Shown here: positions 17,566 to 34,715 of the stretch, one piece after another | Layout of the letters: each line of letters opens with the position of its first letter | How positions within the stretch are numbered: the stretch's first letter is position 1 | Position numbers and translations under genes: made by a program | Source: Mesorhizobium sp. NZP2298 | Lineage (GTDB): Bacteria > Pseudomonadota > Alphaproteobacteria > Rhizobiales > Rhizobiaceae | NCBI RefSeq assembly: GCF_013170825.1 | Contig: NZ_CP033365.1 | Coordinates: 4,166,001-4,230,000, forward strand | Length of the DNA: 64,000 nt | Direction of reading: 5' to 3' | The notes under the pieces: model-generated | Databases searched by the model: none | Told to the model about the DNA's origin: nothing | What the model saw: only the letters and a program-made list of their open reading frames with translations

Positions 17566-17641
17566 GAGCGCGTAGCTCAGCCGGTAGAGCAACTGACTTT
17601 TAATCAGTAGGTCATGGGTTCGAATCCCATCGCGCTCACCA
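17566..17641 (+). tRNA. tRNA-Lys (anticodon UUU)
   Basis: Acceptor stem GAGCGCG (17566-17572) pairs with CGCGCTC (17631-17637). The D stem/loop, a 5-bp anticodon stem (ACTGA/TCAGT) with loop CTTTTAA, anticodon TTT at 17599-17601, and a T arm ATGGG-TTCGAAT-CCCAT are all present. Discriminator A 17638 and a genome-encoded CCA (17639-17641) complete it. Only small variable genes follow, so it may mark an edge of accessory DNA. Confidence 0.97.
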
Positions 17642-20433: not shown

Positions 20434-20640
20434 AGGTCGAAGACAGGCGAATTGATTCAGGGCAATGCGGCCCGCGAAAACCGATGCAAGAAGAGGTTAG
20501 ACGGACAGCATATCGATGGCGGTCTGGTCCGCGAGTTGATCGGAGTTGCGATGTTGGCCCCGAGCGCTGCTGCGGCCTTGGGCGTTCATCTCGGCGAGTA
20601 ATTTGTCTTCAGCCAAGAATCGGATCGCCGGAGAGGAAGA

Positions 20641-21303
20641 ATGACCATGGCAGGCATATCGAGACGTGTTTTTCTGTCAATTGCATCCATGGTTGCAGCT
20701 TTCTCCAACCGGACTGCACTAGCCGACACGTCTTCCAGCTTGCCGGACGCTGCCAAGAATGGAGGGATGTCATTGCTCGAGGCGCTTTCGCTCAGGCAAT
20801 CGACACGGCTCTTCGCCGACAAACCCATTGATGACGAGACCCTTTCGACATTGCTTTGGTGCGCCTTCGGCATCAACAGGCCGAACAGCGGCGGCCATAC
20901 GGCGCCTTCATGGCATGGCGCCATGGAGACCGACATCTATGTCGCCGACGAACGGGGCGTGCGCAAATTCGACCCGGCCGGACAGGCTGCCGTGACCATT
21001 CTTTCGCGCGACATTCGGCGCTTGGCAAGCAAGGAGACTTTTGTTGAAACCGCGCCTGCAGTCCTGATCTACTGCGCCGATAGGGGGCGCTTGCATGTTG
21101 CGAACGAAGATCAGGCAAGTGCGTTTGCCCATGTCGACGCGGGCATCGTGGCGCAAAACGTCTATCTCTACTGCGCATCGGCCGGTCTGGGTACGTGCCT
21201 GGTGGGCGGGGTGGACAAGCCGACGCTTGGCAAGGTGCTTGGCCTGTCGCAGACGCAGTTCGTGACCTTCGTGCAACCTGTAGGATATCCGAGCTCAGGC
21301 TGA
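20641..21303 (+). CDS. Tat-exported nitroreductase-family protein
   Basis: 220 residues. The N terminus carries a twin-arginine signal (GISRRVFLS then a hydrophobic stretch ending near ALADT). A nitroreductase/SagB-like FMN domain follows: [13 protein letters not shown] (FMN phosphate contact), the segment [10 protein letters not shown], and [11 protein letters not shown]. Nitroreductase-family proteins use FMN to reduce nitro, quinone or related groups; export with cofactor fits the Tat signal. GGAGAGGAAG lies before ATG 20641, so it is probably expressed separately from the beta-CASP gene. A hairpin follows the stop. Confidence 0.82.
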
Positions 21304-21324
21304 TGGAGCTCTACACTCCATCAG
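21300..21324. other. 9-bp perfect hairpin after the nitroreductase gene
   Basis: CTGATGGAG (21300-21308) and CTCCATCAG (21316-21324) with a 7-base loop overlap the stop codon of the nitroreductase gene. No T-tract follows on either strand, so it may be a weak terminator or mRNA end stabiliser. Confidence 0.5.
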
Positions 21325-21380
21325 CCATCGATTGTGCTCACGACATCTTGCCCGATTTTGACGAACCCGGTTCTGAGCCG

Positions 21381-21630
21381 CATCCGGCCGAGCACGCGAG
21401 CTGTGTCCTTCATGGATTCCTTGGTGACCGATATGGCTGCCCGTGGGGCCGAAATAGGTGACATGAGCGCCCTGGTCATGAGCCGCTACCTCGAACCCCG
21501 TCCGCGTGCGCGTGGAATCCTTCTCGAAGATCAGCGCGATGTTGTTCCTGACAAGACGAGGGATCTCGTGTCCGGCGGGCTTGGCCGCCTTGAGATCGGC
21601 CGCCAGCTTGAGAAGAAGCGAAAGCCAAGC
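21381..21630 (-). pseudogene. arcB: remnant of catabolic ornithine carbamoyltransferase
   Basis: Reading the minus strand from 21630, the translation gives [13 protein letters not shown], then [18 protein letters not shown] and [18 protein letters not shown]. After a one-base frameshift near 21421 it continues [14 protein letters not shown]. These match the N-terminal carbamoyl-phosphate domain of ornithine carbamoyltransferase (STRTR is the carbamoyl-phosphate loop). An in-frame TGA lies at 21637-21639 just upstream, and everything after GRM is lost. It is therefore a 5'- and 3'-truncated, frameshifted remnant. In related bacteria the catabolic enzyme belongs to the anaerobic arginine deiminase pathway, which suits the low-oxygen theme here. 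Confidence 0.85.
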
Positions 21631-21823
21631 TCGCGATCAGTCCCTCGCGCCGGCAAACCAGGAAGTGTCGTCAAACAATTGCATTGATATGGTGCGGCAA
21701 AGCGATCCGGGGTCGAAATAGTTTCGCTATCCGGACTAGGCACCCAACCAAACGCAGCTTGGCATATCGTCCTTTGAAGAAGGTCTCAGCGCGCCGGATA
21801 GACGCGCCGAGACAAGCGGGTCA

Positions 21824-22363
21824 CTACGCAGCCTTGACCGTGATCTTCTTCTCGGCCTTCTGGGCTTCGGCGGTCTTGGGCAGTTTCACCGTCAACACGC
21901 CCTTGGCGAAGCTTGCATCGATCTTGTCGGCGTCGACGCCTTCAGGCAGTTGGAACGAACGCTGGAAGGAGCCGTAGCGGCGCTCGGACAGATAGTAGTC
22001 CTTGTCCTTCTCTTCCTTTTCGTCCCTCTTCTCGCCCTTGATCGTCAGCGTGTGGTTGGAGAGCTTGATCTCGACATTTTTCTCGTCGATGCCGGGCAGC
22101 TCGGCCGTGATCTCGTACTCCTTGTCCTTCTCGACCAGATCCATGGCGGGCGCGACTGGCCAACCCGCATTCCGCAGGGACGGCAGTTCACGGCCGAATA
22201 GGGACCGTGTCGAAGGCATGCGGAAGTCGAATGGGTGAAAGTCGTCGAATAGCCGGTCGATTTCGCGACGCAGGCTTTCGAACGGTGCTGTCCAGTTGTC
22301 GGACCGGGCAGGGGCAGTGCTCTTCTCAGTCTTGACTGGGAGTTTGGTGGCAGCTTCAGCCAT
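21824..22363 (-). CDS. Hsp20/alpha-crystallin small heat shock protein
   Basis: 179 residues. An N-terminal arm (FESLRREIDRLFDDFHPFD) precedes the alpha-crystallin domain: AMDLVEKDKEYEITAELPG, GVDADKIDASFAKGVLTVKLPK and a short basic tail. It holds unfolding proteins in the cytoplasm for refolding by other chaperones. GGAG before ATG 22363 (CAAAGGAGAAAAACC). A perfect FNR/FixK box lies at 22601-22614, some 240 bases upstream, implying a long leader if that is its promoter. Confidence 0.93.
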   Translation of the reverse strand: MAEAATKLPVKTEKSTAPARSDNWTAPFESLRREIDRLFDDFHPFDFRMPSTRSLFGRELPSLRNAGWPVAPAMDLVEKDKEYEITAELPGIDEKNVEIKLSNHTLTIKGEKRDEKEEKDKDYYLSERRYGSFQRSFQLPEGVDADKIDASFAKGVLTVKLPKTAEAQKAEKKITVKAA

Positions 22364-22737
22364 GGTTTTTCTCCTTTGGTGAGTTGATCGGCAGGTATCG
22401 CCGCCTCCACTCTTCCACCTTTAGGTCTCCCAAGAGGTGCTAGAGCTGGAGGTCAGCGGACCTGCTTGCCAAGTGTCGTCGTCGAACTGGCCCATTGCTT
22501 CGCGAATCCGCGGTTTTGCTGCGGTCCATCGCGCCCGCGTCGCCAAATCTGGCTCGGCCTGGCAAGAACAGCATCAAAGCCGTTGCAAGGGGAGGCCTCA
22601 TTGATCGACATCAATGGCGACTGAAAATGTTTCCCGCTGGAATCGTGGTGGAGATGAGCGATCACTGAGCTACAGCGCAATCAAATCATTACCGAGCCGG
22701 ACGTCTTCCGTTAGCAAAGTGCACGGCGCGGTGATGA
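22364..22737. other. 374-bp intergenic region; only a FixK box recognised
   Basis: Lies between hsp20 (start 22363, minus) and the end of the DUF3775 gene (22738, minus). No coding sequence on either strand is convincing. It contains the FNR/FixK box at 22601-22614. I looked for a ROSE-type RNA thermometer near the hsp20 start and did not see the expected pairing with the GGAG. Confidence 0.6.
22601..22614. promoter_or_regulatory. FNR/FixK box (perfect)
   Basis: TTGATCGACATCAA is an exact TTGAT-N4-ATCAA palindrome. It lies about 240 bases upstream of hsp20 (minus strand), the only divergently reachable start, so it probably controls hsp20 under low oxygen. Confidence 0.75.
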
Positions 22738-23184
22738 CTAAAAGTGCTCGCGCTCAAATTCGAGGCAGGAGTAGCCGAGTGTGGACAGTCCATCGGCAAG
22801 ATAGTCCGCGAGCAGCGGTGTCCCACAGAGATAGTCGGCCGTGTGCTCATTGTGCGCGTCCGTCGCCTGCTGGCGGACACTTTGCCATTCGTCGGCGGAT
22901 TGATCATCGCGACCCAGCCACATCAGGGCGACCAGGTCGATCTGAGCGTCGAGCGAAAGGTCGGAAATCAGGGACTGCAGTTCTTCGAGGACGGGGTCGT
23001 CGGCATGATCCTCCAGGATCGCCGCGGATCGGTCGTCGGATGGATTGGAGGCGGGGTTGGATTCGGTGACCGGATCCTTGGCATCGAATTCACGCGCCTT
23101 CATGATGATGAAGCATACGGTTTCGAGGGGAACTTCGAGTTCCGTTTCACCATTGCCAATACTGCTCGCCGCTTTTTCCATCAT
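22738..23184 (-). CDS. DUF3775 family protein
   Basis: 148 residues. The core ETVCFIIMKAREFDAKD, DPVLEELQSLISDLSLDAQIDLVALMWLGR and ADYLADGLSTLGYSC matches the DUF3775 family, acidic cytoplasmic proteins of unknown function found in Alphaproteobacteria. Its ATG overlaps the stop of the HhH gene by ATGA, so translation is coupled. GAAGGAAAC lies upstream. The pair is driven from the box at 24160. Confidence 0.82.
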   Translation of the reverse strand: MMEKAASSIGNGETELEVPLETVCFIIMKAREFDAKDPVTESNPASNPSDDRSAAILEDHADDPVLEELQSLISDLSLDAQIDLVALMWLGRDDQSADEWQSVRQQATDAHNEHTADYLCGTPLLADYLADGLSTLGYSCLEFEREHF

Positions 23185-24092
23185 ACTGTTTCCTTCAGTT
23201 GCTGTTCACTTTCGCGTCCCCGCACGACGCGTCTGCCGATCATCGGACCATGTGTTTCGGTGACGACCGTACAGCGCCCTTCCGGTTGGCCGTCGACCTG
23301 GAAATAGATCACGACCCAGTCGCGCGTCTTCGCCAGTTCGTGCGCCAGCCTGGTGTTCGAGAAAAACGCGGTGAAATGCCAGTCGTCATGTCGCGCATGC
23401 AACACCGGCAGCCAGGCCTCGCCTTTCGGATTGAAGCGCTTTGGCGCAATCTTGCGAAGCGCCCCGGCCGCCGCCTTTTCGCGATACATGCGATCAACAT
23501 CGAGCAGCATCGACACTGGCGGCAAGGGTTGAGATTGATGGGTCGTTCTCAGCCGAGCCCTGCCGAGCCGCTCGGCGAGGGCTGCCCCCAGCATCTCCTT
23601 GCGCCTGTGACCGATGCCCTTGACGTGAAGCGCGCCGCTATGGAGCGCATTCTCGAGGTCTTCGAGGGTCTCGAGTTGTCCGTCCTCGGCGAGGCGGTGC
23701 GCGTATCGTGGTCCGATTCCGGGGATTGACCGAAACAACGCCTCCGGCTCCATTTCGCCGCGCAGCCGTTCCAACTGGGACCAGCGTCCCGTTGCAACCA
23801 TCTCGGCAATCGCGCCAGCCAGGCCTGTTCCGATTGCCGGGAGGGCGACGAGGCCATCGCGTCCTTCCCTTGCCAGGATCTCGCCCACCGGCCGTTCCAG
23901 CCTGGAAACGACATCTGCGGCCCTTCTGTAGGCCCGTGCACGGAAACCGTCGGCGCCTTGGCTGTCGAGGAGATCGGCAAAATCGCGGAATTTTGCTGCC
24001 ACCCCGATGTTCTCGAGGAGCGGCTTGGTCGCCAATGGCGTCATTGGCTTGACGCCAAGGCTGGGCCTGGCGGTCTGAAGCGGCTCGGGCAT
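23181..24092 (-). CDS. PolX-like helix-hairpin-helix DNA-binding protein without polymerase domain
   Basis: 303 residues. Residues about 22-180 resemble the N-terminal 8-kDa and HhH region of family X DNA polymerases: FADLLDSQGADGFRARAYRR, LPAIGTGLAGAIAEM, SIPGIGPRYAHRL (HhH), HVKGIGHRRKEML. The palm, nucleotidyltransferase and PHP domains are absent; instead a C-terminal module follows (PVSMLLDVDRMYREKA, AWLPVLHARHDDWHFTAFFSN, DWVVIYFQVDG). It is probably a nucleic-acid-binding protein. GAGGAAGG precedes ATG 24092, and a FNR/FixK box lies 68 bases upstream. It is coupled to DUF3775. Confidence 0.75.
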   Translation of the reverse strand: MPEPLQTARPSLGVKPMTPLATKPLLENIGVAAKFRDFADLLDSQGADGFRARAYRRAADVVSRLERPVGEILAREGRDGLVALPAIGTGLAGAIAEMVATGRWSQLERLRGEMEPEALFRSIPGIGPRYAHRLAEDGQLETLEDLENALHSGALHVKGIGHRRKEMLGAALAERLGRARLRTTHQSQPLPPVSMLLDVDRMYREKAAAGALRKIAPKRFNPKGEAWLPVLHARHDDWHFTAFFSNTRLAHELAKTRDWVVIYFQVDGQPEGRCTVVTETHGPMIGRRVVRGRESEQQLKETV

Positions 24093-24159
24093 GACCTTCC
24101 TCGGTGCTGGAGTTCAAAAGGTTGATTAGCCCTCCTAGGCCATTCGACGCCTCGTATTC

Positions 24160-24173
24160 TTGACCCGCATCAA
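24160..24173. promoter_or_regulatory. FNR/FixK box between the HhH and Nramp genes
   Basis: TTGACCCGCATCAA (TTGAC-N4-ATCAA) lies 68 bases from the start of the minus-strand HhH gene and 126 bases from the plus-strand Nramp start. It could act on either or both divergent genes. Confidence 0.65.
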
Positions 24174-24298
24174 TCCGTCGGACTTCGAAACCGGATAGAA
24201 AATATGCGTGCTTCTTCGCGCTCGAAGGTTCGGAACAGCTCGGCGTGGCAATAGTGAGCTCGGTTCGCGTGACGAGAAAAGTGAGGGGAAATCATTCG

Positions 24299-25576
24299 AT
24301 GGAACCGTCGGAGGCATCGGCTGCCGCGTTTAGCAAACGCTACAACTTCTTCGGAAGCTTGGGCCCAGGCCTGATCACGGGGGCGGCTGATGATGATCCA
24401 AGCGGTATTGCCACCTATAGTCAGGTGGGCGCCCAATTCGGCTACTCTCTCGCATGGACCATGCTCTTCAGCTATCCGCTGATGGCTGTAACTCAAGGGA
24501 TCAGTGCCGGGATCGGCGCGGTAACCGGCCAAGGTATCGCGCGCAATCTGCGTCGACACTACTCGCCCTGGCTGCTGCGTTTCGCCGTTCTTCTGCTGCT
24601 TGTCGCCAACGTCATCAACATCGGCGCCGACCTCGGCGCCATGGGAGCGGCGCTTGAATTGCTCATAGGTGGCCCGCAATATTTGTATGCGGTGTTGTTC
24701 GCGCTGACGTGCATCTTCCTGGAAATCTTCGTGAGCTACCGCCGCTACGTCACGGTGCTTAAATGGCTGACCCTGTCCCTGCTTGCCTATGTCGCGGTGG
24801 TGCTGTCGGTTCATGTGCCGTGGGGCACGGCGCTCTATGGCACGCTGGTTCCGCAGATCGCCTTCGACGGCGATCACGCCATGGCGCTGGTTGCCGTTCT
24901 TGGCACGACAATCAGTCCTTACCTCTTCTTTTGGCAAGCCGGGGAGGAGGTCGAGGAGCAGCACCGGCAACATCGTCAACGGCTGGGCGCCAACTCGCAC
25001 GCTGCCGGGCCGGAGCTGTCGCGCATCCGGGGCGACACACTGTTCGGAATGGGCTTCTCCAACCTGGTGGCCATTGTCATCATCATCGCCACCGCGGCAA
25101 CGCTCCATGCCAACGGGATCACGCAGATCCAAACCTCATCGCAGGCGGCCGAAGCACTCAGGCCTGTCGCCGGGGAGTTTGCGTTCGCCATTTTCGCTGC
25201 CGGCATTATCGGCACGGGCATGCTTGCCATCCCCGTGCTTGCCGGCTCGGCCGCCTATGCAGTCGCGGAGATGTTTCGTTGGTCGGAAGGCCTCGATCGG
25301 CGCCCGCAAGATGCCAAGGCCTTCTACGGCACGATTGCGGTGGCGACGCTGGGTGGGGTAACTCTGACTTTTGTCGGCATGGATCCCATAAGAGCGCTCT
25401 ATTGGAGTGCTGTGGTGAACGGAGTTCTGGCCGCTCCACTGATGGCGATCATGATGATGATCGCCATGAACCCTCGGATCATGGGCCATCTCACCTTGCC
25501 GCGCTGGATGGCTCTCGGCGGCGCGCTCGCCACGGCGGTGATGGCCCTGGCTTCAATTGGCTTTTTCGTGCTGTGA
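24299..25576 (+). CDS. Nramp-family transporter with non-canonical metal-site motifs
   Basis: 425 residues, about eleven membrane segments. The fold is Nramp-like: [19 protein letters not shown] in TM1 and [19 protein letters not shown] in TM6. Classic Mn/Fe Nramps have DPGN and MPH at these places; here they read DPSG and SPY, so the Asn and the metal-binding Met are missing. The gene's ion is therefore uncertain. ATG 24299 follows GAGGGGAAATC; the GTG at 24245 would add 18 residues without membrane character. It is divergent from the HhH gene with a FNR/FixK box between them. Confidence 0.8.
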
Positions 25577-25875
25577 CAGACGGAAGGGTCCTGCCGTCGA
25601 CGGCTTGGATGATGCGGGCGCAACGGCCGGTGAGATCGTGATTGTGGGTGATGATAAAAGATCTTCCCACGCTCTGTGTTGAAGCGCCGCATCAAGTCGA
25701 AGACAGCATCGGCCGAGGCCGTGTCGAGATTGCAGGTCGGTTCATCGGCGAGCACCAGCAACGGTTTCATCGCCAAGGCGCGGGCAATGGCCACGCGTTG
25801 CTGCTGCAAGCGCCTGTGACCTCGTGCCAGATCAATTCTGGCTCTCGGCTTGCCGGCTTCCGATCGCGCGGCCAA
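25577..25875 (-). pseudogene. remnant of an ABC transporter ATP-binding subunit
   Basis: The minus-strand translation keeps [20 protein letters not shown] and [19 protein letters not shown] (signature end, Walker B and D-loop). A frameshift then replaces the expected H-loop; the other frame continues with [16 protein letters not shown] and [11 protein letters not shown]. Walker A and the N-terminal third are missing. Sequence is nearest in style to LolD/MacB-type ATPases. It lies between the Nramp stop and the CBS-BON gene. I read it as decayed, not expressed. Confidence 0.75.
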
Positions 25876-25895
25876 GCTCAGTTGGCAGTACTGCC

Positions 25896-26603
25896 TTAAG
25901 CTGGCGGGTCGACCACGATGCCGGACAGAGGCTCGACCCAGTACAGATGATCGGTCACGGATTTCACGCCGGCAACATTTTCTGCCGCGACAAGCGCGGC
26001 CTGACGCTCGCGCTCGTCAAGGATCGCGCCGTTCAGCTCGGCAATCCCTTTGTCGACCCTGACATGGATCATGTCTGTTCCAGCCCATGGCTGCGCCGCA
26101 AGCTCCGCAACGATCTTCTGACGAATCTGTTCGTCGGTTGCCACCGTCGAGTCGCCCTTTGGAAGAGAGCGAAGCAATGCGCGCAGAAGATCGGAACGTG
26201 TGACGATGCCGATAACTTTTCCGCCCTCGACCACCGGAATGCGTTTGACCTGGTGGCGCGTCATGAGTTCGACGACGTCCTCCAATGCGCTTTCAGGGGA
26301 TGTCGTGACGACTTGTTCGGACATTACCTCGTCGACCCGACGGCCGTTGGCATGGACATACTCCTCGGCGACACGTCCTGGGCTGACGAGAAACTCCAGC
26401 CAGCGTGAGCGCTTGCGTTTCGTGCCCAGCTCGCTGCGGCGCAGAAAATCGCCTTCACTGACAATCCCGACCAGCACGCCATCGCTGCGGATGACGGGAA
26501 GGCCGCTGATCTTGCGCGAGAGCATCAATCCGGCCGCGTCGGCGATCGATGCGGACGGTTCGACGCCAATGACGGGGGAAGTCATTATCGATGAGGCTTG
26601 CAC
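25896..26603 (-). CDS. CBS-pair and BON domain protein
   Basis: 235 residues. Two CBS domains occupy about residues 7-60 ([41 protein letters not shown]) and 92-145 ([41 protein letters not shown]). A BON domain follows ([31 protein letters not shown]). CBS pairs usually sense adenine nucleotides and BON domains bind membranes or lipids. GTG 26603 follows GAAGGAGACGAAC, a good binding site; ATG 26585 is the alternative. A perfect TTGAC-N4-GTCAA box lies 100 bases upstream. Confidence 0.88.
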
Positions 26604-26704
26604 GTTCGTCTCCTTCGAAATCTAGACTTGTTCGGCTTGCCGCCGAGGGATCGCGACAGCATGGAATAGCTGACCTCATCCTATTCCCTGGGCAGGCGGG
26701 CGCT

Positions 26705-26718
26705 TTGACCGGCGTCAA
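26705..26718. promoter_or_regulatory. FNR/FixK box between the CBS-BON gene and the FtsH remnant
   Basis: TTGACCGGCGTCAA is a symmetric TTGAC-N4-GTCAA site. It lies 101 bases upstream of the CBS-BON start (minus strand) and 69 bases before the FtsH-remnant ORF (plus strand), so it could drive both. Confidence 0.65.
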
Positions 26719-26786
26719 GGCAGGATCCCGACCGAGGTTGCAGTTTTCAAATCCAATCCTGCAAAATCTGGTTCGAGCGTCGAACG

Positions 26787-26969
26787 ATGGGCAATGAGCA
26801 TAAATTCAACATCGGCTACGTCGTGGCCGCCCTCCTGCTGCTCGAGAAGGAAACGCTGACGCCTGACGACTTCGCGCCGTTGCGGCGAACCGCCGAGTTG
26901 GTGCGGCGGCGTGAAGGCGACGCAGGCCGAGATGCTGGCCCATTTGAACAAACGAGGAGAGTGTCATGA
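26787..26969 (+). pseudogene. ftsH: FtsH remnant: N terminus fused to C terminus by a large internal deletion
   Basis: The 60-codon reading frame starts MGNEHKFNIGYVVAALLLL, like the cytoplasmic end and first membrane segment of FtsH. It then reads LLEKETLTPDDFAPL, a pattern found at the very C terminus of FtsH (about residues 580-600 in full-length proteins). The AAA and zinc-protease domains are missing. The most economical explanation is an in-frame internal deletion. The frame ends in ATGA overlapping the next gene, and the FNR/FixK box precedes it. Confidence 0.6.
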
Positions 26970-27484
26970 AACACAAGCTTCAGCAGAAGATGATCGACAT
27001 CCTGGCGCGTTGCATGGACATGACGATAGCAACGACCCGCTCCGATGGCTCGCCACAGGCGACGGTCGTCTCGTTCGCCCATGATGGTCTGCTGCTTTAT
27101 TTCGGCTGCGGAGCCAGCTCGCAAAAGGCCATGAATATCTCTCGCGATCCGCGCGTTTCGGTGGCCCTGACCGCACCCTATGAGAACTGGCTGGAGATCA
27201 AGGGGTTGTCGATGGCGGCGACCGCGACGGAGGTCGCCTTGCCTTCCGAACTCACGGAAATCGGACGCATGATGGTGCAGCGCTTCCCGCAGATTTCGGC
27301 TGTCCAGCCCAGTGAGTCCGTACCTGTGAAGCTGTTCAGAGTACGGCCCACGATCGTCTCTGTGCTCGACTATTCCCTGGGTTTTGGTCACACCGACCTC
27401 GTCAAAGTCGAGGCCGATGACATCGCCGAGACCCTGGACAGCATGCGACACCATTGGCTCGTGGGCACTCCCGCCAGCTCTTGA
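26966..27484 (+). CDS. pyridoxamine 5'-phosphate oxidase-fold protein
   Basis: 172 residues with the split-barrel FMN-binding fold: DMTIATTRSDGSPQATVVSF, LLLYFGCGASSQKAMNISRDP and RVSVALTAPYENWLEIKGLSM. General-stress proteins and F420/FMN-dependent enzymes of this fold often reduce small molecules or buffer flavins. GAGGAGAGTGTC lies before ATG 26966. Its ATG overlaps the stop of the FtsH remnant, so it probably was, and may still be, expressed from the box at 26705. Confidence 0.8.
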   Translation: MKHKLQQKMIDILARCMDMTIATTRSDGSPQATVVSFAHDGLLLYFGCGASSQKAMNISRDPRVSVALTAPYENWLEIKGLSMAATATEVALPSELTEIGRMMVQRFPQISAVQPSESVPVKLFRVRPTIVSVLDYSLGFGHTDLVKVEADDIAETLDSMRHHWLVGTPASS

Positions 27485-27527
27485 CGATCGCGTCGATCGA
27501 CCAAGCAGCTGACTATCCGACGCGGCA

Positions 27528-27541
27528 TTGAGCCGGATCAA
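27528..27541. promoter_or_regulatory. FNR/FixK box upstream of the BON gene (one mismatch)
   Basis: TTGAGCCGGATCAA matches TTGAT-N4-ATCAA except for G at position 5. It ends 75 bases before the BON-protein start at 27616. Confidence 0.55.
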
Positions 27542-27615
27542 TGAGCAAGGGCGCAAAAGATGCTTTTTGTTGACGCTGCGGGCGAGAAGTCCGCTCAACA
27601 AACAGGAGACAGACC

Positions 27616-28263
27616 ATGACGGATTTAACGTTGCGTCAGAACATTCTCGATGAATTGGAATTCGAGCCGAGCATCGACGCTGCACACATCGGCGTCGCCG
27701 TGGAAGATGGCATCGTCACCCTTACCGGACATGTTTCTTCCTACTGGGAAAAGACCACCGCCGAAAATGTGGTCAAGCGGGTCAAGGGCGTGAAGGGTCT
27801 CGCCGAGGAAATCGAAGTCCGGCTGATTGGCCAGAAGGGGACCGCGGACGACGAGATCGCCAAACGTGCGGTCAATGCGGTCACCTGGAACGTCTCCATC
27901 CCGAGGGACAAGGTGCAGGTCAAGGTCCAGGACGGCTGGATCACGCTGACCGGGAAAGTTGAATGGCAGTACCAGAAGAACGCGGCGGCCGAGGCGGTGC
28001 GCGGGCTGGCCGGCGTTGTCGGTATTGCCAATCAGATCGAAGTCACCCCTCGTGCCTCGGTGCCCGACGTCAAGAAGCGCATCGAGGACGCGCTGAAACG
28101 TGATGCGGAAATCGAAGCCCAGGCGATCCGCGTCATCGTTCTGGATGGCAAGGTTACCCTTGAAGGCAAGGTCAAGGCTTGGTCCGAGCGCCAGGCAGCC
28201 GAGCGTGCCGCCTGGTCGTCGCCGGGCGTCCGGGCGGTGGACGATCGGATTTCCATAATCTGA
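27616..28263 (+). CDS. triple BON domain protein
   Basis: 215 residues made of three BON domains: about 5-72 (GVAVEDGIVTLTGHVSS, VKGVKGLAEEIEV), 78-148 (VQVKVQDGWITLTGKVEWQY, GLAGVVGIANQIEV), and 150-214 (IRVIVLDGKVTLEGKVKAW, SSPGVRAVDDRISI). There is no signal peptide, so it appears cytoplasmic, unlike OsmY. Such proteins are induced by osmotic or low-oxygen stress in several rhizobia. ATG 27616 follows ACAGGAGACAGACC. A FNR/FixK box with one mismatch lies 75 bases upstream. Confidence 0.88.
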   Translation: MTDLTLRQNILDELEFEPSIDAAHIGVAVEDGIVTLTGHVSSYWEKTTAENVVKRVKGVKGLAEEIEVRLIGQKGTADDEIAKRAVNAVTWNVSIPRDKVQVKVQDGWITLTGKVEWQYQKNAAAEAVRGLAGVVGIANQIEVTPRASVPDVKKRIEDALKRDAEIEAQAIRVIVLDGKVTLEGKVKAWSERQAAERAAWSSPGVRAVDDRISII

Positions 28264-28463
28264 TGAGGCCGACAAGGCCGGCGCGGCGGCTTCCATGAGT
28301 TGCCGCCACGCCGATGCAGCGCGCGGTGCGTATTCGGTTAAGAGAAGCACGCTCGGAGGAAGAGGGCGCGCTCTTCCAGTTCACGAGGCGACGAAGATCG
28401 TTGCCAAGGATGGCGAGGCAGTGCGTTGGACCTCGATCAAGACCGTGTCAAAGGAGAAACAAA

Positions 28464-28868
28464 ATGATTCTGGCTAATGGCACTATCATCGCGGTCACCG
28501 ACGGCGAGAACCTGCGTCTCTTCCGCAACAAGAGCCCCGAACCCCGGATCGACCTGGTGGAATTGCCCGAACCGATGCTGCATTCGGCTAACACGGGCTC
28601 GGGCGGACGGCATCGCAGTTCCGCGGCCAATCCCGATGATTCCCGCCTGCGGGAAGACGACTTTGCCGCCACCGTGGCAGCCTATCTCAATCGCGAAGCG
28701 CTGGCGGAAGCGTTCCAGCATGTGGTGGTGATCGCCGATCCGCGCACGCTGGGCGAACTGCGCAAGCACTTTCAGCCTTCGCTGAAAGCAAAGCTGGTGG
28801 GCGAGCTGGCCAAGGATCTCGCGAAACATCCCGCCGGGGCGATCGAGAACACGTTGGCGGCGGCTTGA
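28464..28868 (+). CDS. host attachment family protein
   Basis: 134 residues: NGTIIAVTDGENLRLFRNK, FAATVAAYLNREALAEAFQHVVVIADPRTLGELRKHF, and LKAKLVGELAKDLAKHPAGAIENTL. This is the pattern of the 'host attachment protein' family (COG5622, related to Agrobacterium attachment loci); the biochemical role is unknown. The fold resembles eRF1/baeRF-type domains. ATG 28464 follows AAAGGAGAAACAAA. A 200-base gap separates it from the BON gene; no box occurs in it, so read-through from the BON promoter is likely. Confidence 0.82.
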   Translation: MILANGTIIAVTDGENLRLFRNKSPEPRIDLVELPEPMLHSANTGSGGRHRSSAANPDDSRLREDDFAATVAAYLNREALAEAFQHVVVIADPRTLGELRKHFQPSLKAKLVGELAKDLAKHPAGAIENTLAAA

Positions 28869-28981
28869 GCCCCGCCCAGATCATCGACCAAACCCTGCCG
28901 ATCTCGACTATCGTCGAGAACCTTTTAGCATGGCGACTTTGGGCGGATTGGATGCTCAGTTCAATTTGAACGCATCCCGGT

Positions 28982-29197
28982 TTAGAGGAGTGAGAAGCTC
29001 GAGCCAAGGAAGACGAGAAACTGACCGGTGATCAGGGGAATTTTCAACATGGGCCCATTCTCGCCGCTGTCCTGGATCGGCGATCCCGCGACGTAAGGGT
29101 GCACCTTCAGGATGTTTTTCCAGATCGTTGGAAAATCCGCTCCCTTGTTCTTTTCAGCGTTGCACGCATTGAGAAGCCCCGCGACGATGTGAGTCAT
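28982..29197 (-). CDS. small hypothetical protein under a perfect FixK box
   Basis: 71 residues: MTHIVAGLLNACNAEKNKGA, then DFPTIWKNILKVHPYVAG and PMLKIPLITGQFLVFLGSSF. Hydrophilic start, hydrophobic end, no clear signal peptide. I recall short rhizobial proteins with 'DFPTIW-x-ILK-HP-x-VAG', but not a named family. No Shine-Dalgarno is strong. Support for a real gene comes from the perfect FixK box at 29260-29273, 63 bases upstream, and from amino-acid composition. Confidence 0.55.
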   Translation of the reverse strand: MTHIVAGLLNACNAEKNKGADFPTIWKNILKVHPYVAGSPIQDSGENGPMLKIPLITGQFLVFLGSSFSLL

Positions 29198-29259
29198 TGA
29201 ACCCGTATTAATTAAGCGCCTGTTTTGAAATCATATGAATGAACACGACACGGATGGTT

Positions 29260-29273
29260 TTGATTTCGATCAA
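29260..29273. promoter_or_regulatory. FNR/FixK box (perfect)
   Basis: TTGATTTCGATCAA, exact palindrome, 63 bases upstream of the 71-residue minus-strand gene and just downstream of the ChaB-like gene. It cannot serve ChaB, which reads toward it. Confidence 0.75.
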
Positions 29274-29284
29274 ACTGCGCGGGC

Positions 29285-29500
29285 TCAAATGAGCACCCAG
29301 CCTTTGCCTTGCTTTCGATAAAGGCGCTTCACGGCAGCCCAAGCGACGCGGTAGGCAGTCTCTTCACGCCTTTCGCCTTGGTCGGCATATTCGTCCCAGG
29401 CGCTGTTGAAAGCAGCGCGAAAGATCTCCCTCGCATGCAGGGGCAGGTGCGCCCTGACAGACGGTGGAAGATCCTTCTCGGTCGCATAGGGCATTGCCAT
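29285..29500 (-). CDS. ChaB-like protein
   Basis: 71 residues: MPYATEKDLPPSVRAHLPLH and AFNSAWDEYADQGERREETA, then YRVAWAAVKRLYRKQGKGW. It matches the ChaB family of small helical proteins (first described with the E. coli ChaA cation antiporter) and occurs widely in stress clusters. I start at ATG 29500 (or ATG 29494); longer frames add unrelated residues. It follows the truncated universal stress gene by 70 bases on the same strand, probably in the transcript from the box at 30781. Confidence 0.82.
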   Translation of the reverse strand: MAMPYATEKDLPPSVRAHLPLHAREIFRAAFNSAWDEYADQGERREETAYRVAWAAVKRLYRKQGKGWVLI

Positions 29501-29573
29501 TCTCACTGCAGCCAAGCCAACGCCCATGGCTGGGATGTGGCCGATGAACATCGGACGTGGCCGTCGCGGACGA

Positions 29574-29891
29574 TCAGCTTGACATGAAGCGGCAGAGCCG
29601 GCTGTCGTCGAGCAGCGGGCGGGTAACGCCGCCGAATACCCATTCCCTGATCCGACTGTGCCCGTAGGCGCCTGACACGACCAGGTCTGCGTTGGCGGAG
29701 CTCAGGAAGTCGACCAGCTCGTCGCTCTCGTCATCGGCCTTCAGCACTTCGGTGCGCGCCGTGATGCCATGCGTTGCCATGAAGGTCGCGACATCGTTGA
29801 TGCCGGCCCCGGTCCTGTCGCTGGGCTCTGAGTCGACCGTGACCACGATCGCCTCGTTTGCCATCGCCATCAGCGGCACGGTGTCGGTCAC
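29574..29891 (-). pseudogene. truncated second universal stress protein (C-terminal half)
   Basis: The 105 codons align with the second half of the neighbouring universal stress protein: MTDTVPLMAMANEAIVVTVD and VVSGAYGHSRIREWVFGGVT match VTDALPFLTGAQDVLVAT and VVAGGYGHSRLREWAFGGMT. The ATP-binding G-x2-G-x9-G(S/T) type loop is retained, but the N-terminal UspA domain and part of the second are lost. An in-frame stop lies upstream. It is either a pseudogene or a short single-domain protein. Confidence 0.7.
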
Positions 29892-29909
29892 CGCGCTGCA
29901 TTCAGCGCG

Positions 29910-30725
29910 TCAGTTCGAGAACAAGCGGTCGACGGAGCCATTCCTGAGCAGGGAGCGGGTCATGCCGCCAAAGGCCCATTCGCGCAGCCGGCTATGACCG
30001 TAGCCACCGGCGACGACAAGATCGGCACCCATGCCATGGGCGAGTTCGATGATGGTTTCGCAAGCATCCTTATGATCCGAGTCCAGGACTTCCGATCTCG
30101 CCTTGATGCCGTGCCTCATCATGAACCGGACGACGTCGCTGACACTTTCGCGCGCATCTCTCTGGTTCTGTTCTTCGATCGTCGCCACGAGCACATCTTG
30201 TGCGCCGGTCAGGAAGGGCAATGCATCGGTGACTGCTCGCCGAGCCTCGCGGGTATCCTTCCACGCGACCAGAACGTTCTTGGGGTCGGGTGGGACAAGC
30301 CGGTCGGCCGCAATCAGCACAGGCCGTCCGGCCGACAGCACAAATGTTCCGATGTCGACCACCCGGTGGTGATCAGCGCCGGAGACCGGCGTTCCCGTCA
30401 CGACGAGATCGGCGGCGCGGGCATGCATCGCGAGCAGACGTGTCGGGTCCCCGATCTCTTCACGCCATGTGGCGTCGTCTCCGACGAGGCTCAGGAATTC
30501 CTCCTTCAGAATCTTCAGGCGATCCTCGATCTCGATCCGGCGCTCACGCATGATTTCCGCCGCCGCCATGCCGCCATCGTCACCCGGAACAAACACGTAT
30601 GAATCGGCTGCGGCGAAACCGATCAGCGTAGCTTCGAAGCGCCGCGCCAACTCCAGCGCATAGGTCGCTCGCGGCGCAGCCGGAGAATCGACGTCGAGTT
30701 GAACCATGATGGTGTTGAAGATCAT
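29910..30725 (-). CDS. universal stress protein, two UspA domains
   Basis: 271 residues. The first UspA domain runs about 1-145 (IMVQLDVDSPAAPRATYALE, RAADLVVTGTPVSGADH) and the second about 155-271 (KNVLVAWKDTREARRAVTDALP, GADLVVAGGYGHSRLREWAFGG). Tandem UspA proteins bind ATP and accumulate under hypoxia and stress. The start at ATG 30725 has GGAGG upstream; a longer frame to 30803 lacks one and would overlap the regulatory box. A perfect FixK box lies at 30781-30794, 56 bases upstream. Confidence 0.9.
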   Translation of the reverse strand: MIFNTIMVQLDVDSPAAPRATYALELARRFEATLIGFAAADSYVFVPGDDGGMAAAEIMRERRIEIEDRLKILKEEFLSLVGDDATWREEIGDPTRLLAMHARAADLVVTGTPVSGADHHRVVDIGTFVLSAGRPVLIAADRLVPPDPKNVLVAWKDTREARRAVTDALPFLTGAQDVLVATIEEQNQRDARESVSDVVRFMMRHGIKARSEVLDSDHKDACETIIELAHGMGADLVVAGGYGHSRLREWAFGGMTRSLLRNGSVDRLFSN

Positions 30726-30780
30726 TTCCGTGCCTCCGATGAGATTTGTTGCAAGATCACCGGAGGTCCGATCTCGCGCC

Positions 30781-30794
30781 TTGATGCGTATCAA
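30781..30794. promoter_or_regulatory. FNR/FixK box (perfect)
   Basis: TTGATGCGTATCAA, exact palindrome, ends 56 bases upstream of the universal stress protein start (minus strand). Confidence 0.8.
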
Positions 30795-30965
30795 AGTCCG
30801 CATATCTTGTAAGTCCGTCAGGGCACATCGTCATCGCCGGCTTGCGAGACGCCGGACGCAGTAGCCAAGAGAGAACAAGCCACTTGAATGAGAATGCGGG
30901 CAGCGCGGCATTGCTGCGCCGAAATCATCATCGAGTTTGTCTTGGCAACGACGTTTCGCGCGGTA

Positions 30966-32588
30966 TTACATAGTCATCTCTGGTTCGAGAGCGCGTTCTT
31001 TCGCCGGTTCCGGAATTTCGGTCATGGTCGCTTCCGTCAAGAGCAGAACGCTCGCGACCGAGACGGCGTTTTCCAGAGCGATGCGCACCACTTTGGTCGG
31101 GTCGATGATCCCGGCCTCGACGAGATCGACGTATTCCTTGCGGCCCGCATCGAAGCCGAAATTGCCGATGCCTTCAATCATCTTGGCAATGACGACCCCG
31201 CCGTCGACTGCTGAATTTTCTGCAATCTGCCTGACTGGTGCTTCCAGCGCGCGCTTGAGGATCTGTACGCCGGTCCGCTCGTCGCCCTCGCAATGCTGCT
31301 CCTCGTCAGCCACGGTCGCGATGCAGCGCAAGAGGGCAAGCCCGCCGCCTGGCACTATACCTTCGGCGACCGCGGCCTTCGTGGCGCTGATGGCATCGTC
31401 GAGCGCTTCCTTCTTCGATTTCATCTCGGCCTCTGTCGGCGCGCCGACCTTGATGACGGCGACGCCGCCCGCAAGCTTGGCCAGCCGCTCCTGCAGCTTT
31501 TCGCGATCATAGTCGCTCGTCGTGTTGTCGATCTCGCGCCGAATCTGCTCAACACGGCCCTTGATCGCCTTTGCATCTCCGCTGCCGCCGATGATCGTCG
31601 TATTGTCCTTGTCGACGACAATGCGCTTCGCGCGCCCCAACTGCTCCATGGTCACATTTTCCAGTTTGAGCCCGAGGTCTTCGGAGATGACCTGGCCGCC
31701 GGTCAGGATGGCAATGTCCTGCAGCATGGCCTTGCGGCGATCGCCGAAGCCAGGTGCCTTTACGGCACAGTTCTTGAAGGTGCCCCGGATCTGGTTGACG
31801 ATGAGCGTCGCAAGGGCCTCGCCTTCGACTTCCTCGGCGATCACCAGCAAGGGCGAACCGGACTTCGCCACGGCTTCAAGCAGCTTGATAAGATCATTCA
31901 GCGAAGCGATCTTCTTTTCGACGATCAGCACGAGCGCATCTTCGAGGACCGCTTCCATCTTCTCCGGATCGGTCACGAAATAGGGCGACAGGAATCCGCG
32001 GTCGAACTGCATGCCTTCGACGACGTCGAGGACGGTTTCCGTGGTCTTCGATTCTTCGACCGTGATGACACCTTCGCCGCCGACCTTCTCCATTGCTTCG
32101 CCGACCAACTGGCCGATGAGGGGATCGTTGTGCGCGGAGATCGTTGCCACCTGTTCCTTTTCGCGACGGGTCGAGACCGGCCGAGATATCTGCTTGAGTG
32201 TGTCGATCGCCCGTTTTGTTGCACGATCGAGACCTTTCTTGATGTCGATCGCGCTGGCGCCGGCAACGACATTGCGCACCCCGTCGGCGAACATCGCGTG
32301 GGCCAGGATGGTTGACGTGCTGGTGCCGTCACCGACCATGTCCCCGGTCTTCTCGGCTGCCTGCCTGAGCATCCGCGCGCCAAGATTCTCCTCGGGGTCC
32401 TTCAGGTCGAATTCCTTCGCGATGGTCACGCCGTCATTGCAGACGATGGGAGCGCCCCACTTCTTTTCGATCAGAACCGATTTCGAGCGCGGCCCGAGCG
32501 TCACGCGTACGGCGTCGGCGAGCTGGGTTGCGCCACGAAGAATCTTTTCGCGCGCTGCTGAACGAAACAATACCTGTTTGTGAGCCAT
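30966..32588 (-). CDS. groEL: 60-kDa chaperonin GroEL, without a neighbouring groES
   Basis: 540 residues, full length. ATP-site motifs [15 protein letters not shown] and VPGGGLALL are present, as are [10 protein letters not shown] and [17 protein letters not shown]. The C terminus ends EPEMTM and lacks the glycine-methionine-rich tail of housekeeping GroEL. No groES precedes it, so it must borrow a co-chaperonin or act in an accessory role; rhizobia commonly have several groEL copies with different regulation. No CIRCE element was seen upstream. Two FNR/FixK boxes lie at 32643 and 32675, about 55 and 87 bases upstream of ATG 32588. Confidence 0.93.
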
Positions 32589-32642
32589 GATCGCCTCCGA
32601 GCTATGATGCGTCTTGGCTAACAGGGATGAGGTCAGCCGGCT

Positions 32643-32656
32643 TTGATACGCATCAA
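32643..32656. promoter_or_regulatory. FNR/FixK box (perfect), groEL proximal
   Basis: TTGATACGCATCAA, exact palindrome, 54 bases upstream of the groEL start. With its neighbour at 32675 it forms a tandem pair with centres 32 bases apart, close to three helical turns. Confidence 0.8.
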
Positions 32657-32674
32657 TCCAAGCGTCAGCCCAGG

Positions 32675-32688
32675 TTGACGAGGATCAA
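32675..32688. promoter_or_regulatory. FNR/FixK box, groEL distal
   Basis: TTGACGAGGATCAA (TTGAC-N4-ATCAA), 86 bases upstream of groEL and 18 bases beyond the perfect box at 32643-32656. Confidence 0.65.
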
Positions 32689-32987
32689 AGTAGACCCGTT
32701 TCCTGTTGGGTGGCTGTCAACGCAGCTTGGATAACAGCCATGCCACACAGCCCGAATTCGCTATCGAACGGGTCCCAAAACGTCAGTGAAACAAGTTGCC
32801 GCGATCAAGGCGTTGAGGGGCTCGGCCAAGCCGATCGCCAGCAGAGCAGCTATGCAAACGAATAGGGAGGAGTGAGTCTGAGCAATCTGTTGCGATAAAA
32901 CGCATCCGCGGCGGACGTGTACTTTAGTGCTTCCGATTTTCATATCACGCTGGCGCCGTTGTTAAACCTTGCGCCGCGATCGACCGC

Positions 32988-33485
32988 TCAGCCGTTCCGC
33001 GACAGATGCACGTCCAGGACCGCGGCCTTCTTGGCGATCAGGCCTTCCAGATCCGCGTCCGATCGCTTGGTGCCGGTCCGTTCGCGCAGCAGCGAGATCA
33101 CAGCGCTCATCGAAAGTGGGGCGGTTTGGGAAAGTGGGGCGGTTTGAGTGCCCAGAATGGCATCCACCGCGCTGGCAACATCCGGAGTCTCCGCTGGCGC
33201 TCGCATGGTCGGTTCCTTTCTGTTCAGGTCGGCCTCGGTGCCATCAGCCGGTCCCCTGGCGCCGCGATCGAAGACGACCGCCAGGCCGTTCTTCACCGCG
33301 AGTGCGGCGACCATATCGTCGAGCTTGCGATCGGAAAGGGCTGGGTCCGCTGGTTTCAGCATCCTGCGGATCACCCTGGCAGCCTGATCCGTCGATACGA
33401 AGCCATAACGCCGTTTTCTGGCCTCGACATATTGTTCGATGATCATACTCAGGCGTCGGGCCGCGATATCCCTGGGCTCCTGCAC
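32988..33485 (-). CDS. hypothetical protein with an 18-bp tandem repeat
   Basis: 165 residues, charged and soluble; no family recognised. Segments include RLSMIIEQYVEARKRRYGFV, DRKLDDMVAALAVKNGLAVV and ISLLRERTGTKRSDADLEGL. The last two look like repeated helical modules of about 50 residues. An 18-bp unit (33112-33129 and 33130-33147) is repeated in tandem and encodes two copies of TAPLSQ in the linker. GTG 33485 is supported by AAGGAGG at good spacing. It lies between groEL and the GT4 gene; no FixK box precedes it. Confidence 0.65.
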   Translation of the reverse strand: MQEPRDIAARRLSMIIEQYVEARKRRYGFVSTDQAARVIRRMLKPADPALSDRKLDDMVAALAVKNGLAVVFDRGARGPADGTEADLNRKEPTMRAPAETPDVASAVDAILGTQTAPLSQTAPLSMSAVISLLRERTGTKRSDADLEGLIAKKAAVLDVHLSRNG

Positions 33486-33653
33486 CTAGGCCTCCTTAAG
33501 CTGAGTGCAACTCGGCAGCCAAAATGAAATAGGGCGGCTCGATCGAACGTCAAAGGCTCCCGACCATTTGACGCATCTGCGAATGAGGCCGGAACGATCC
33601 TGCGGCTGAGGCATTTCCACTGCATGACCAGCTCATTGAGGGAAGGCCGGGCC

Positions 33654-34715
33654 ATGAAGATTGCCCACGTCGCGCCACTATATGAATCCGTACCTCCAAG
33701 GCTCTATGGCGGCACCGAGCGCATCATTTCCTACCTGACCGAGGCTCTCGTCGCCCTCGGCCACGATGTGACGTTGTTCGCCAGTGGCGACACGAAGACC
33801 TCCGCCAGGCTCGTGCCATGCCGCGAGCGGGCCCTTCGTCTTGATCCGCGTCCATTGAAATCCGAGATCGCGGCGCATCTATCGATGCTCGACGAGGTGA
33901 GGAAACGGGCCGACGATTTCGACGTCATTCATTTCCATCTCAGTCATTTCCTGCATTTCCCGTTCTTCCGAGGGATCCCGCAACGTACAGTGACGACGCC
34001 GCATGGCAGGCTGGATTACGCCGACCTCGCACAAGCCTACGACCGGTTCCCGCGGTTTCCGATGATTTCCATATCCCGCAGCCAGCGGGCGCGGTTCGCG
34101 TCCGCGAATTGGCTGGCGACGATTCATCACGGATTGCCGGTCGATCTCTACGAACCCGATTTCGAGGCAGGCTCGGATGGCGGCTATCTTGCGTTTCTCG
34201 GCAGGATGTCGCGCGACAAGCGACCGGACCGAGCGATCGAAATCGCCCGCCGCACCGGGCTGAAACTCAAACTTGCGGCCAAGGTCGGTGATGGCGATCG
34301 CGCTTATTTCGAGGAAGTCGTCCAGCCGATGATCGATGGCGACAGGGTCGAATATGTCGGCGAGATCGGCGAGGATCAGAAGAGCAGATTTCTTGGCAAC
34401 GCAGCCGCCCTCTTGTTTCCCATTGATTGGCCCGAACCCTTCGGCCTTGCCGTGATCGAGGCCATGGCCTGCGGAACCCCGGTCATGGCCTGGAGTTGCG
34501 GCGCCATGCCCGAGATCATCGATTATGGAGTTACCGGCTTCGTCGTCGAAACGATCGAAGATGCTGTCGCCACGATGCCGGCTCTCCTGCAACTCGACAG
34601 GCGGCGCATAAGGGCGGTGTTCGAAAGGCGGTTTTCAGCCGACAGGATGGCCAGGGACTACGTCGCGGCTTATTCGCGGCTGAACAACGGCCATGAGCAA
34701 AGCAGAGCCTCATAG
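33654..34715 (+). CDS. GT4-family glycosyltransferase
   Basis: 353 residues, GT-B fold. The N-terminal domain contains VAPLYESVPPRLYGGTERII and HFHLSHF; the C-terminal nucleotide-sugar domain has FLGRMSRDKRPDRAIEIAR, FPIDWPEPFGLAVIEAMACG and TPVMAWSCGAMPEII, with the EPFG/EAMA(C)G motif of retaining GT4 enzymes. The acceptor is unknown. ATG 33654 follows GAAGGCC. It begins a four-gene sugar cluster (GT4, debranching-type glucosidase, GT20, OtsB-like phosphatase) at the right end of the stress region. Confidence 0.88.
   Translation: MKIAHVAPLYESVPPRLYGGTERIISYLTEALVALGHDVTLFASGDTKTSARLVPCRERALRLDPRPLKSEIAAHLSMLDEVRKRADDFDVIHFHLSHFLHFPFFRGIPQRTVTTPHGRLDYADLAQAYDRFPRFPMISISRSQRARFASANWLATIHHGLPVDLYEPDFEAGSDGGYLAFLGRMSRDKRPDRAIEIARRTGLKLKLAAKVGDGDRAYFEEVVQPMIDGDRVEYVGEIGEDQKSRFLGNAAALLFPIDWPEPFGLAVIEAMACGTPVMAWSCGAMPEIIDYGVTGFVVETIEDAVATMPALLQLDRRRIRAVFERRFSADRMARDYVAAYSRLNNGHEQSRAS

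Follow-up and report, generated by a model that had tools for sequence, protein, structure and literature searches.

Why are so many copies of one regulatory box packed between the stress genes of a short part of the Mesorhizobium sp. NZP2298 genome, and which regulator would use them? The window analyzed here is a stretch of 64,000 nucleotides (assembly GCF_013170825.1, contig NZ_CP033365.1, positions 4,166,001–4,230,000 of the forward strand), and coordinates are those of the window unless stated to be of the genome. A first-pass annotation of this DNA had read boxes of the type TTGAY-N4-RTCAA, upstream of hsp20, groEL, usp and their neighbors, as marking one low-oxygen FixK/FNR island. From the sites themselves, their spacing, their conservation and the regulator genes of the strain, we infer that the boxes are very probably operators of a FixK/FnrN-type activator of the CRP/FNR family, through which low oxygen would switch on the genes of the cluster.

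Box sites in the window and in the genome

The pattern TTGAYNNNNRTCAA has seven exact matches in the window, at 22601, 24160, 26705, 29260, 30781, 32643 and 32675, compared to a mean of 0.15 and a maximum of 2 in shuffled sequence. According to a simple in-house gene caller, all seven lie between genes, in a region where intergenic DNA makes up 2202 of 10337 bases; four have the form TTGAT-N4-ATCAA. These positions, the intergenic placement and the four TTGAT-N4-ATCAA forms agree with the first-pass annotation, and the pattern search also recovered its additional one-mismatch site at 27528. When one mismatch is allowed, the window yields 13 matches, 6 of them inexact, against 4.5 expected, so that a lone inexact match is weak evidence; the site at 27528 was accepted because it is conserved in relatives (see below). 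The predicted FixK/FnrN boxes are:

22601..22614, box 1, TTGATCGACATCAA, upstream of hsp20, its centre 244 bp from the ATG
24160..24173, box 2, between the divergent HhH (-74) and Nramp (-133) genes
26705..26718, box 3, upstream of the CBS-BON gene (-108) and of an FtsH remnant
27528..27541, box 4, imperfect (one mismatch), TTGAGCCGGATCAA, ~82 bp upstream of the BON gene
29260..29273, box 5, 69 bp upstream of a gene for a 71-residue protein (orf71)
30781..30794, box 6, 62 bp upstream of usp
32643..32656, box 7, proximal groEL box (-61)
32675..32688, box 8, distal groEL box (-93), 32 bp from box 7

Across the 7,336,816 bases of the genome, the exact pattern TTGAY-N4-RTCAA occurs 52 times, compared to 6 times for a reversed pattern used as control. 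The first-pass annotation had counted a fixed 10-base pattern, expected about once per megabase; as two positions are two-fold degenerate, the expectation at equal base use is rather ~4 per Mb, although the reversed control, at 0.8 per Mb, comes near the original figure. Gene calling with the same kind of simple caller around all 52 sites, where 17% of the DNA is intergenic, placed 37 between genes and 15 within called genes. Three clusters hold 26 of the 52 sites: one at 2.2945–2.3279 Mb (n = 7), that of the window (n = 7) and one at 7.092–7.1385 Mb (n = 12). A comparison with the genomic background had been proposed as a check, and for the exact pattern the window cluster is indeed the densest 10-kb stretch of the genome, with seven boxes in 10,088 bases where 0.036 would be expected from the rate outside the three clusters.

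Conservation of the boxes in relatives

Loci of relatives were found through the HhH protein, 20 of them with a named organism, including 13 from Mesorhizobium; an HhH match of at least 65% identity is present in just 3 of 36 other same-genus genomes searched. Box distances were counted for relatives whose tblastn match starts within the first 3 residues and has at least 150 bp of upstream DNA, excluding divergent HhH loci, and promoter alignments were limited to orthologues of at least 70% identity.

On this basis, the distance between box and gene is kept at hsp20 (-239 to -248 in 11/11 relatives), HhH (-68 to -76 in 10/10), Nramp (2/2), orf71 (-69 to -72 in 6/6 of these loci), usp (-62 or -63 in 7/7 orthologues) and the proximal groEL box (4/4), and box 3 has the same place in the sole CBS-BON orthologue with upstream DNA (L083). 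The distal groEL box lies 32, 32 and 33 bp from the proximal one in three of the four relatives, whereas in L067 126 bp separate the proximal box from the next one. Seven of eight Usp paralogues also carry a box. These kept distances contrast with the genes that lack a box of their own in relatives: DUF3775 (0/10), baeRF12 (0/8) and PNPOx (0/6), together with ChaB, which has none in the single relative with upstream DNA.

The outer TTGA/TCAA letters match the window fully (100%) in four of five aligned promoters and to 98% in the fifth, that of the BON gene (8 relatives). The inner six box letters are 59–94% identical in the same five alignments, and the rest of the aligned 300 bp 59–78%. If the template is shifted off the box, no placement does as well in four of the five promoters, and one of 260 does for orf71. 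The exact pattern is found near the BON gene in just 2 of 10 relatives; since the same odd G (TTGAG) is retained in 8/8 close relatives, the imperfect form of this box seems to be maintained.

Promoter geometry

The boxes are followed by a -10 signal at a fixed distance. Over 49 gene-facing orientations genome-wide, the mean -10 score at 29 bases from the box centre is 3.82, compared to 1.92 (standard deviation 0.29) at other distances, and none of 20000 permutations reaches the score of this peak. The signal is absent facing away from genes (25 orientations, 1.48) and for sites within genes (30 orientations, 1.73). The nine gene-facing orientations in the window average 4.11 and thus fit the genome-wide pattern. 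With transcription starts as predicted, this geometry, a mean over promoters, is that of class II FNR-type activation. In Rhizobium leguminosarum, activating anaeroboxes are given at -32 to -34 from the transcription start (PMC7888657, Table 1; cited papers stand throughout for the excerpts of their text used here), which would match the class II place if measured to the near end of the box.

Regulators and the other two clusters

Among the products of the genome are a single FixK-like protein, which has no cysteines, three FnrN-type proteins and two FixLJ pairs. By eye, the FnrN-type proteins have the arrangement C-X2-C-X7-C and a later cysteine, and they share the recognition helix ETVSR with the FixK-like protein. 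FixJ passes the curated NCBI cut-off twice, whereas FixK, FnrL and FixL are best matches below their cut-offs. One and the same box is bound by both FixK and FnrN (PMC7888657), so the sequence cannot tell which of the two acts.

Apart from the products of these regulator family searches, genes of the other clusters were named by eye. The 7.1-Mb cluster reads as fixNOQP, fixG, hemN, usp genes, the FixK-like regulator, one FnrN-type regulator and a FixLJ pair. The 2.3-Mb cluster, with the second FixLJ pair, reads as phosphoketolase, acetate kinase, a cation ATPase, dehydrogenases, BON and FtsH; this FtsH (genome positions 2314617–2316478) may be interrupted, as it is called as two neighboring frames of 506 and 109 residues. 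The same box precedes the genes read as fixNOQP, fixG and hemN, which are classic oxygen targets, and elsewhere in the genome it precedes cydA-like and clpB-like genes.

A fixK-like gene is matched within the same locus in two relatives (L080, 80% identity; L085, 72%), and matches to genes of all three clusters, be they orthologues or paralogues, are interleaved in eight (L066–L068, L070–L074). Both observations suggest a single regulon whose genes have moved about together with their boxes. The regulon part of the first-pass proposal is thus supported by the conserved box positions, the -10 signature, the regulator genes and the boxes at the fix genes. The cluster is one of three rather than a stand-alone island, and some of its members have no box of their own.

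In the mechanism that we propose, falling oxygen would activate FixK, induced by FixLJ, and/or FnrN, bearing an Fe-S cluster. A dimer would bind each TTGAY-N4-RTCAA box, centred ~41.5 bp before the transcription start, and bring RNA polymerase to a weak -10 element at a distance of 29 bp from that centre. Transcription would then begin near 22566 (hsp20), 24125 (HhH), 24208 (Nramp), 26670 (CBS-BON), 29225 (orf71), 30746 (usp) and 32608 (groEL). The hsp20, HhH-DUF3775, Nramp, CBS-BON, BON, orf71, usp and groEL genes would be switched on together, with fixNOQP, fixG, hemN and fermentation-type genes of the other clusters co-induced; their products would protect and refold proteins and hold metabolism during hypoxia.

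Alternative explanations

Chance or base composition has next to no prospect of accounting for the boxes. The 14 of 52 genome sites that lie in called genes outside the clusters do resemble background, but the counts against shuffled sequence and the reversed control, the density, the conservation and the -10 signature all contradict such an origin. The boxes might instead mainly serve a nitric oxide (NO)-responsive protein of the NnrR/DNR type, or another CRP-family protein, with denitrification or NO as the signal. A further CRP-family gene (genome positions 7103609–7104313) does lie beside genes read as nnrS and nirK, and the target sequence of FNR, FixK and DNR has been treated as common (PMC2908626). 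However, the recognition helix of this protein is HTVSR and not the ETVSR of the FixK-like and FnrN-type proteins, and the boxes before fixNOQP, fixG and hemN, as well as the fixK-like matches in the relatives' loci, also speak against this explanation, which we regard as improbable.

Slightly less probable still is that the genes are mainly under heat-shock or NifA/sigma-54 control, the boxes merely fine-tuning them. Both hsp20 and groEL are classical heat-shock genes, and, much like an RNA thermometer, the hsp20 leader combines length and conservation with a stable fold. Matches to a sigma-32 pattern, a loose one with three mismatches allowed, number 92 versus 54 expected; this excess, hard to interpret, is spread across the whole window. 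Against this explanation, an Rfam search of 20400–33700, hsp20 leader included, gave no match, and the position of the -10 element follows the box. Sites of the NifA type (TGT-N10-ACA) number 4 in the window versus 6.0 expected, with none upstream of the eight box-bearing genes, and sigma-54-like sites are at chance level (76 versus 75.5); these counts argue against NifA/sigma-54 control.

Several observations weigh against control of the cluster by a FixK/FnrN-type activator. The cluster genes DUF3775, PNPOx, baeRF12 and ChaB have no box of their own, and both CBS-BON paralogues and one of the eight Usp paralogues (L076) lack it. Among the eight divergent HhH loci with upstream DNA (L075–L079, L081, L082, L085), which were read by hand, a box is close upstream in only three (L076–L078). 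The hsp20 box is unusually distant from its gene (244 bp), and the BON box deviates from the pattern both in the window and in close relatives. Single -10 elements are poor (GATCTT at usp; the best hexamer at orf71 is displaced by 2 bases), hence the treatment of the -10 signature as a mean over promoters. Finally, groEL, heat shock, fixK and fnr do not appear in the excerpted text of a Mesorhizobium huakuii bacteroid transcriptome, which lists one Usp and one phosphoketolase (PMC3973600).

A FixK/FnrN-type activator remains our favored reading despite these points. As nifH and nodA are present in the genome, the strain could meet a nodule setting, and the cluster is compatible with a role in bacteroids. 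A second nodA-like stretch with two stops (genome positions 6757686–6758099) lies near the intact nodA at 6771352.

Genes of the locus

The genes and promoter elements tied to the boxes are:

21824..22363, minus strand, hsp20, small heat shock protein of 179 residues (Pfam PF00011, 2.7e-29)
22364..22566, minus strand, predicted long hsp20 5' leader of ~203 nucleotides, its start placed 41.5 bp from the box centre
22573–22578, -10-like TTTGAT for hsp20, its place counted by hand
22738..23184, minus strand, DUF3775 protein (PF12616, 1.2e-28)
23181..24092, minus strand, HhH protein of 303 residues (HHH_8, PolX-like N-terminal part; PF14716, 1.3e-15)
24132–24137, minus strand, -10-like TAGGAG for box 2
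24196–24201, plus strand, -10-like TAGAAA for box 2
24300..25576, plus strand, Nramp metal transporter (PF01566, 2.6e-87)
25896..26603, minus strand, CBS-CBS-BON protein of 235 residues (PF00571 and PF04972)
26787..26969, plus strand, FtsH remnant, recognized by eye: a short N-terminal and a C-terminal piece, body missing
26966..27484, plus strand, PNPOx-fold flavoprotein of 172 residues (PF01243, 9.1e-13)
27616..28263, plus strand, three-BON-domain protein of 215 residues (PF04972, 1.2e-48)
28982..29197, minus strand, orf71, orphan protein of 71 residues
29910..30725, minus strand, usp, 271 residues with two Usp stretches (PF00582, searched as a longer reading from 30803)
30966..32588, minus strand, groEL, 540 residues (NF009489, 1.3e-266)

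The DUF3775 gene shares 4 bases with the end of the HhH gene, and the two probably form an operon, judging from their arrangement. An ABC-transporter ATPase fragment (25402–25875, minus strand), represented by its domain end only, overlaps the 3' end of the Nramp gene. The FtsH remnant is a broken piece, as the first-pass annotation had it, and its place coincides in part with that of matches to the FtsH body in six relatives (L066, L068, L071–L074). The box nearest the PNPOx gene is 254 bp away and faces CBS-BON; the best NCBIfam match of this protein is TIGR03618, of the F420-dependent class, under the cut-off. Next to usp, a half Usp gene (29574–29891) lacks its N-terminal part and has no box, and six relatives (L066–L068, L070, L071, L083) have a full Usp paralogue nearby that does carry a box (-69 to -73). 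The gene list shows no groES-sized gene beside groEL. A 165-residue gene upstream of groEL contains a perfect 18-bp tandem duplication (33112–33146). The tRNA-Lys gene at 17566–17641, ~1.2 kb before the start of the stress-gene region (18832), may mark the point where an accessory region was inserted; no integrase was noticed by eye in the gene list, and no search aimed at integrases was made.

orf71, the twin groEL boxes and the hsp20 leader

Beyond the regulon itself, we put forward tentatively, as a reading somewhat more likely to fail than to hold in full, that orf71 represents a new low-oxygen family marked by a FixK/FnrN box ~69 bp upstream, that the locus is an accessory stress locus of box-carrying cassettes reshuffled between species, that groEL is served by twin boxes three helical turns apart, and that hsp20 has a long structured leader through which control at the RNA level could be added.

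The orf71 gene is present in 41 of 146 same-genus genomes searched, its own included. A protein search gave 41 members including itself, and those with a named organism are all from Mesorhizobium. One locus was taken from each of the best 30 of the 41 matching genomes, the window being one of them and the 11 weaker genomes (at most 66% identity over at least part of the protein) left out. The exact box lies within 300 bp in 29 of these 30 loci (28 of 29 without the window), at 60–80 bp in 27 of them, and the remaining locus has a one-letter variant at 68 bp. Since the ratio of nonsynonymous to synonymous substitution rates is 0.12–0.26 versus 28 relatives of equal length, orf71 is judged a true gene. 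It has no family in Pfam or NCBIfam. An AlphaFold model, based on an alignment of 32 of the 41 proteins, is small and confident, with two helices and four strands (predicted local distance difference test score 90.5), and a structural search with it gave no convincing match.

The proximal groEL box has a -10-like TAGCCA at +29 (32615–32620). Since this box is at the class II place, the distal one would lie near -73, further upstream by three helical turns and on the same side of the DNA. The 32-bp spacing recurs in the two anaeroboxes of the R. leguminosarum fnrN gene (-34 and -2), the distal of which activates and the proximal represses (PMC7888657). For groEL, we favor synergy of the twin boxes; alternatively, one of them may repress.

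The predicted hsp20 leader, together with 30 coding bases, has a mean column identity of 86% in 12 sequences, and its fold is 3.2 standard deviations below shuffled sequences (z -3.19). A hairpin of 28 pairs within it has 97.6% of its cells paired, with little covariation.

Comparison with known systems

The cluster resembles the FixK/FnrN regulon of R. leguminosarum, which has the same box and in which fixNOQP and fixGHIS stand behind it (PMC7888657). There, a small heat shock protein gene with a TTGA-N6-TCAA box at -87.5 from the start codon is induced ~50-fold by low oxygen in an FnrN-dependent manner (PMC11784457). Unlike in that regulon, groEL, Nramp, CBS-BON, BON, HhH-DUF3775 and orf71 are here boxed in one dense cluster. 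The alpha-proteobacterial FNR core regulon likewise includes UspA, cbb3 oxidase subunits, oxygen-independent coproporphyrinogen oxidase and RdxA/FixG (Dufour et al. 2010; PMC2908626), whereas 'chaperon' and 'groEL' are absent from the main text of that paper. The lxa locus of Burkholderia cenocepacia (BCAM0275-0323) also clusters Usp, heat shock, BON and flavin/nitro-reductase-type proteins, is tied to limited oxygen and has a FixK homologue as its proposed regulator (PMC6127331). The two were compared for gene content, and groEL, Nramp, HhH and orf71 are not met in the excerpted description of the locus (PMC6127331). The lxa locus is, moreover, one contiguous locus of a beta-proteobacterium, in contrast to the three clusters here. 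The DosR dormancy regulon of Mycobacterium has a regulator family and an operator different from those of FixK/FnrN. It shares many hypoxia-induced Usp genes (PMC6127331), an analogy only.

Given the lxa locus, UspA in the FNR core regulon and the FnrN-dependent rhizobial small heat shock protein, this type of cluster is already known. Among the matches listed in a literature search, none gives an account of this Mesorhizobium locus or of a box-controlled groEL; orf71 lacks a name under which papers could be found. Less expected are the box-tied orphan family of 71-residue proteins, the twin groEL boxes 32 bp apart and the long conserved hsp20 leader.

With this cluster, Mesorhizobium gains a concrete, testable candidate for a low-oxygen stress regulon beyond the nif/fix genes, with seven promoters that have predicted start sites. 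The boxes suggest that a chaperonin, metal transport and several uncharacterized proteins have joined the FixK/FnrN network, in line with the idea that such loci expand by gathering genes that bring their box along. The orf71 family offers a well-defined target in the search for a new hypoxia function, and the long structured leader of hsp20 could, if its role is borne out, add a second, RNA-level control.

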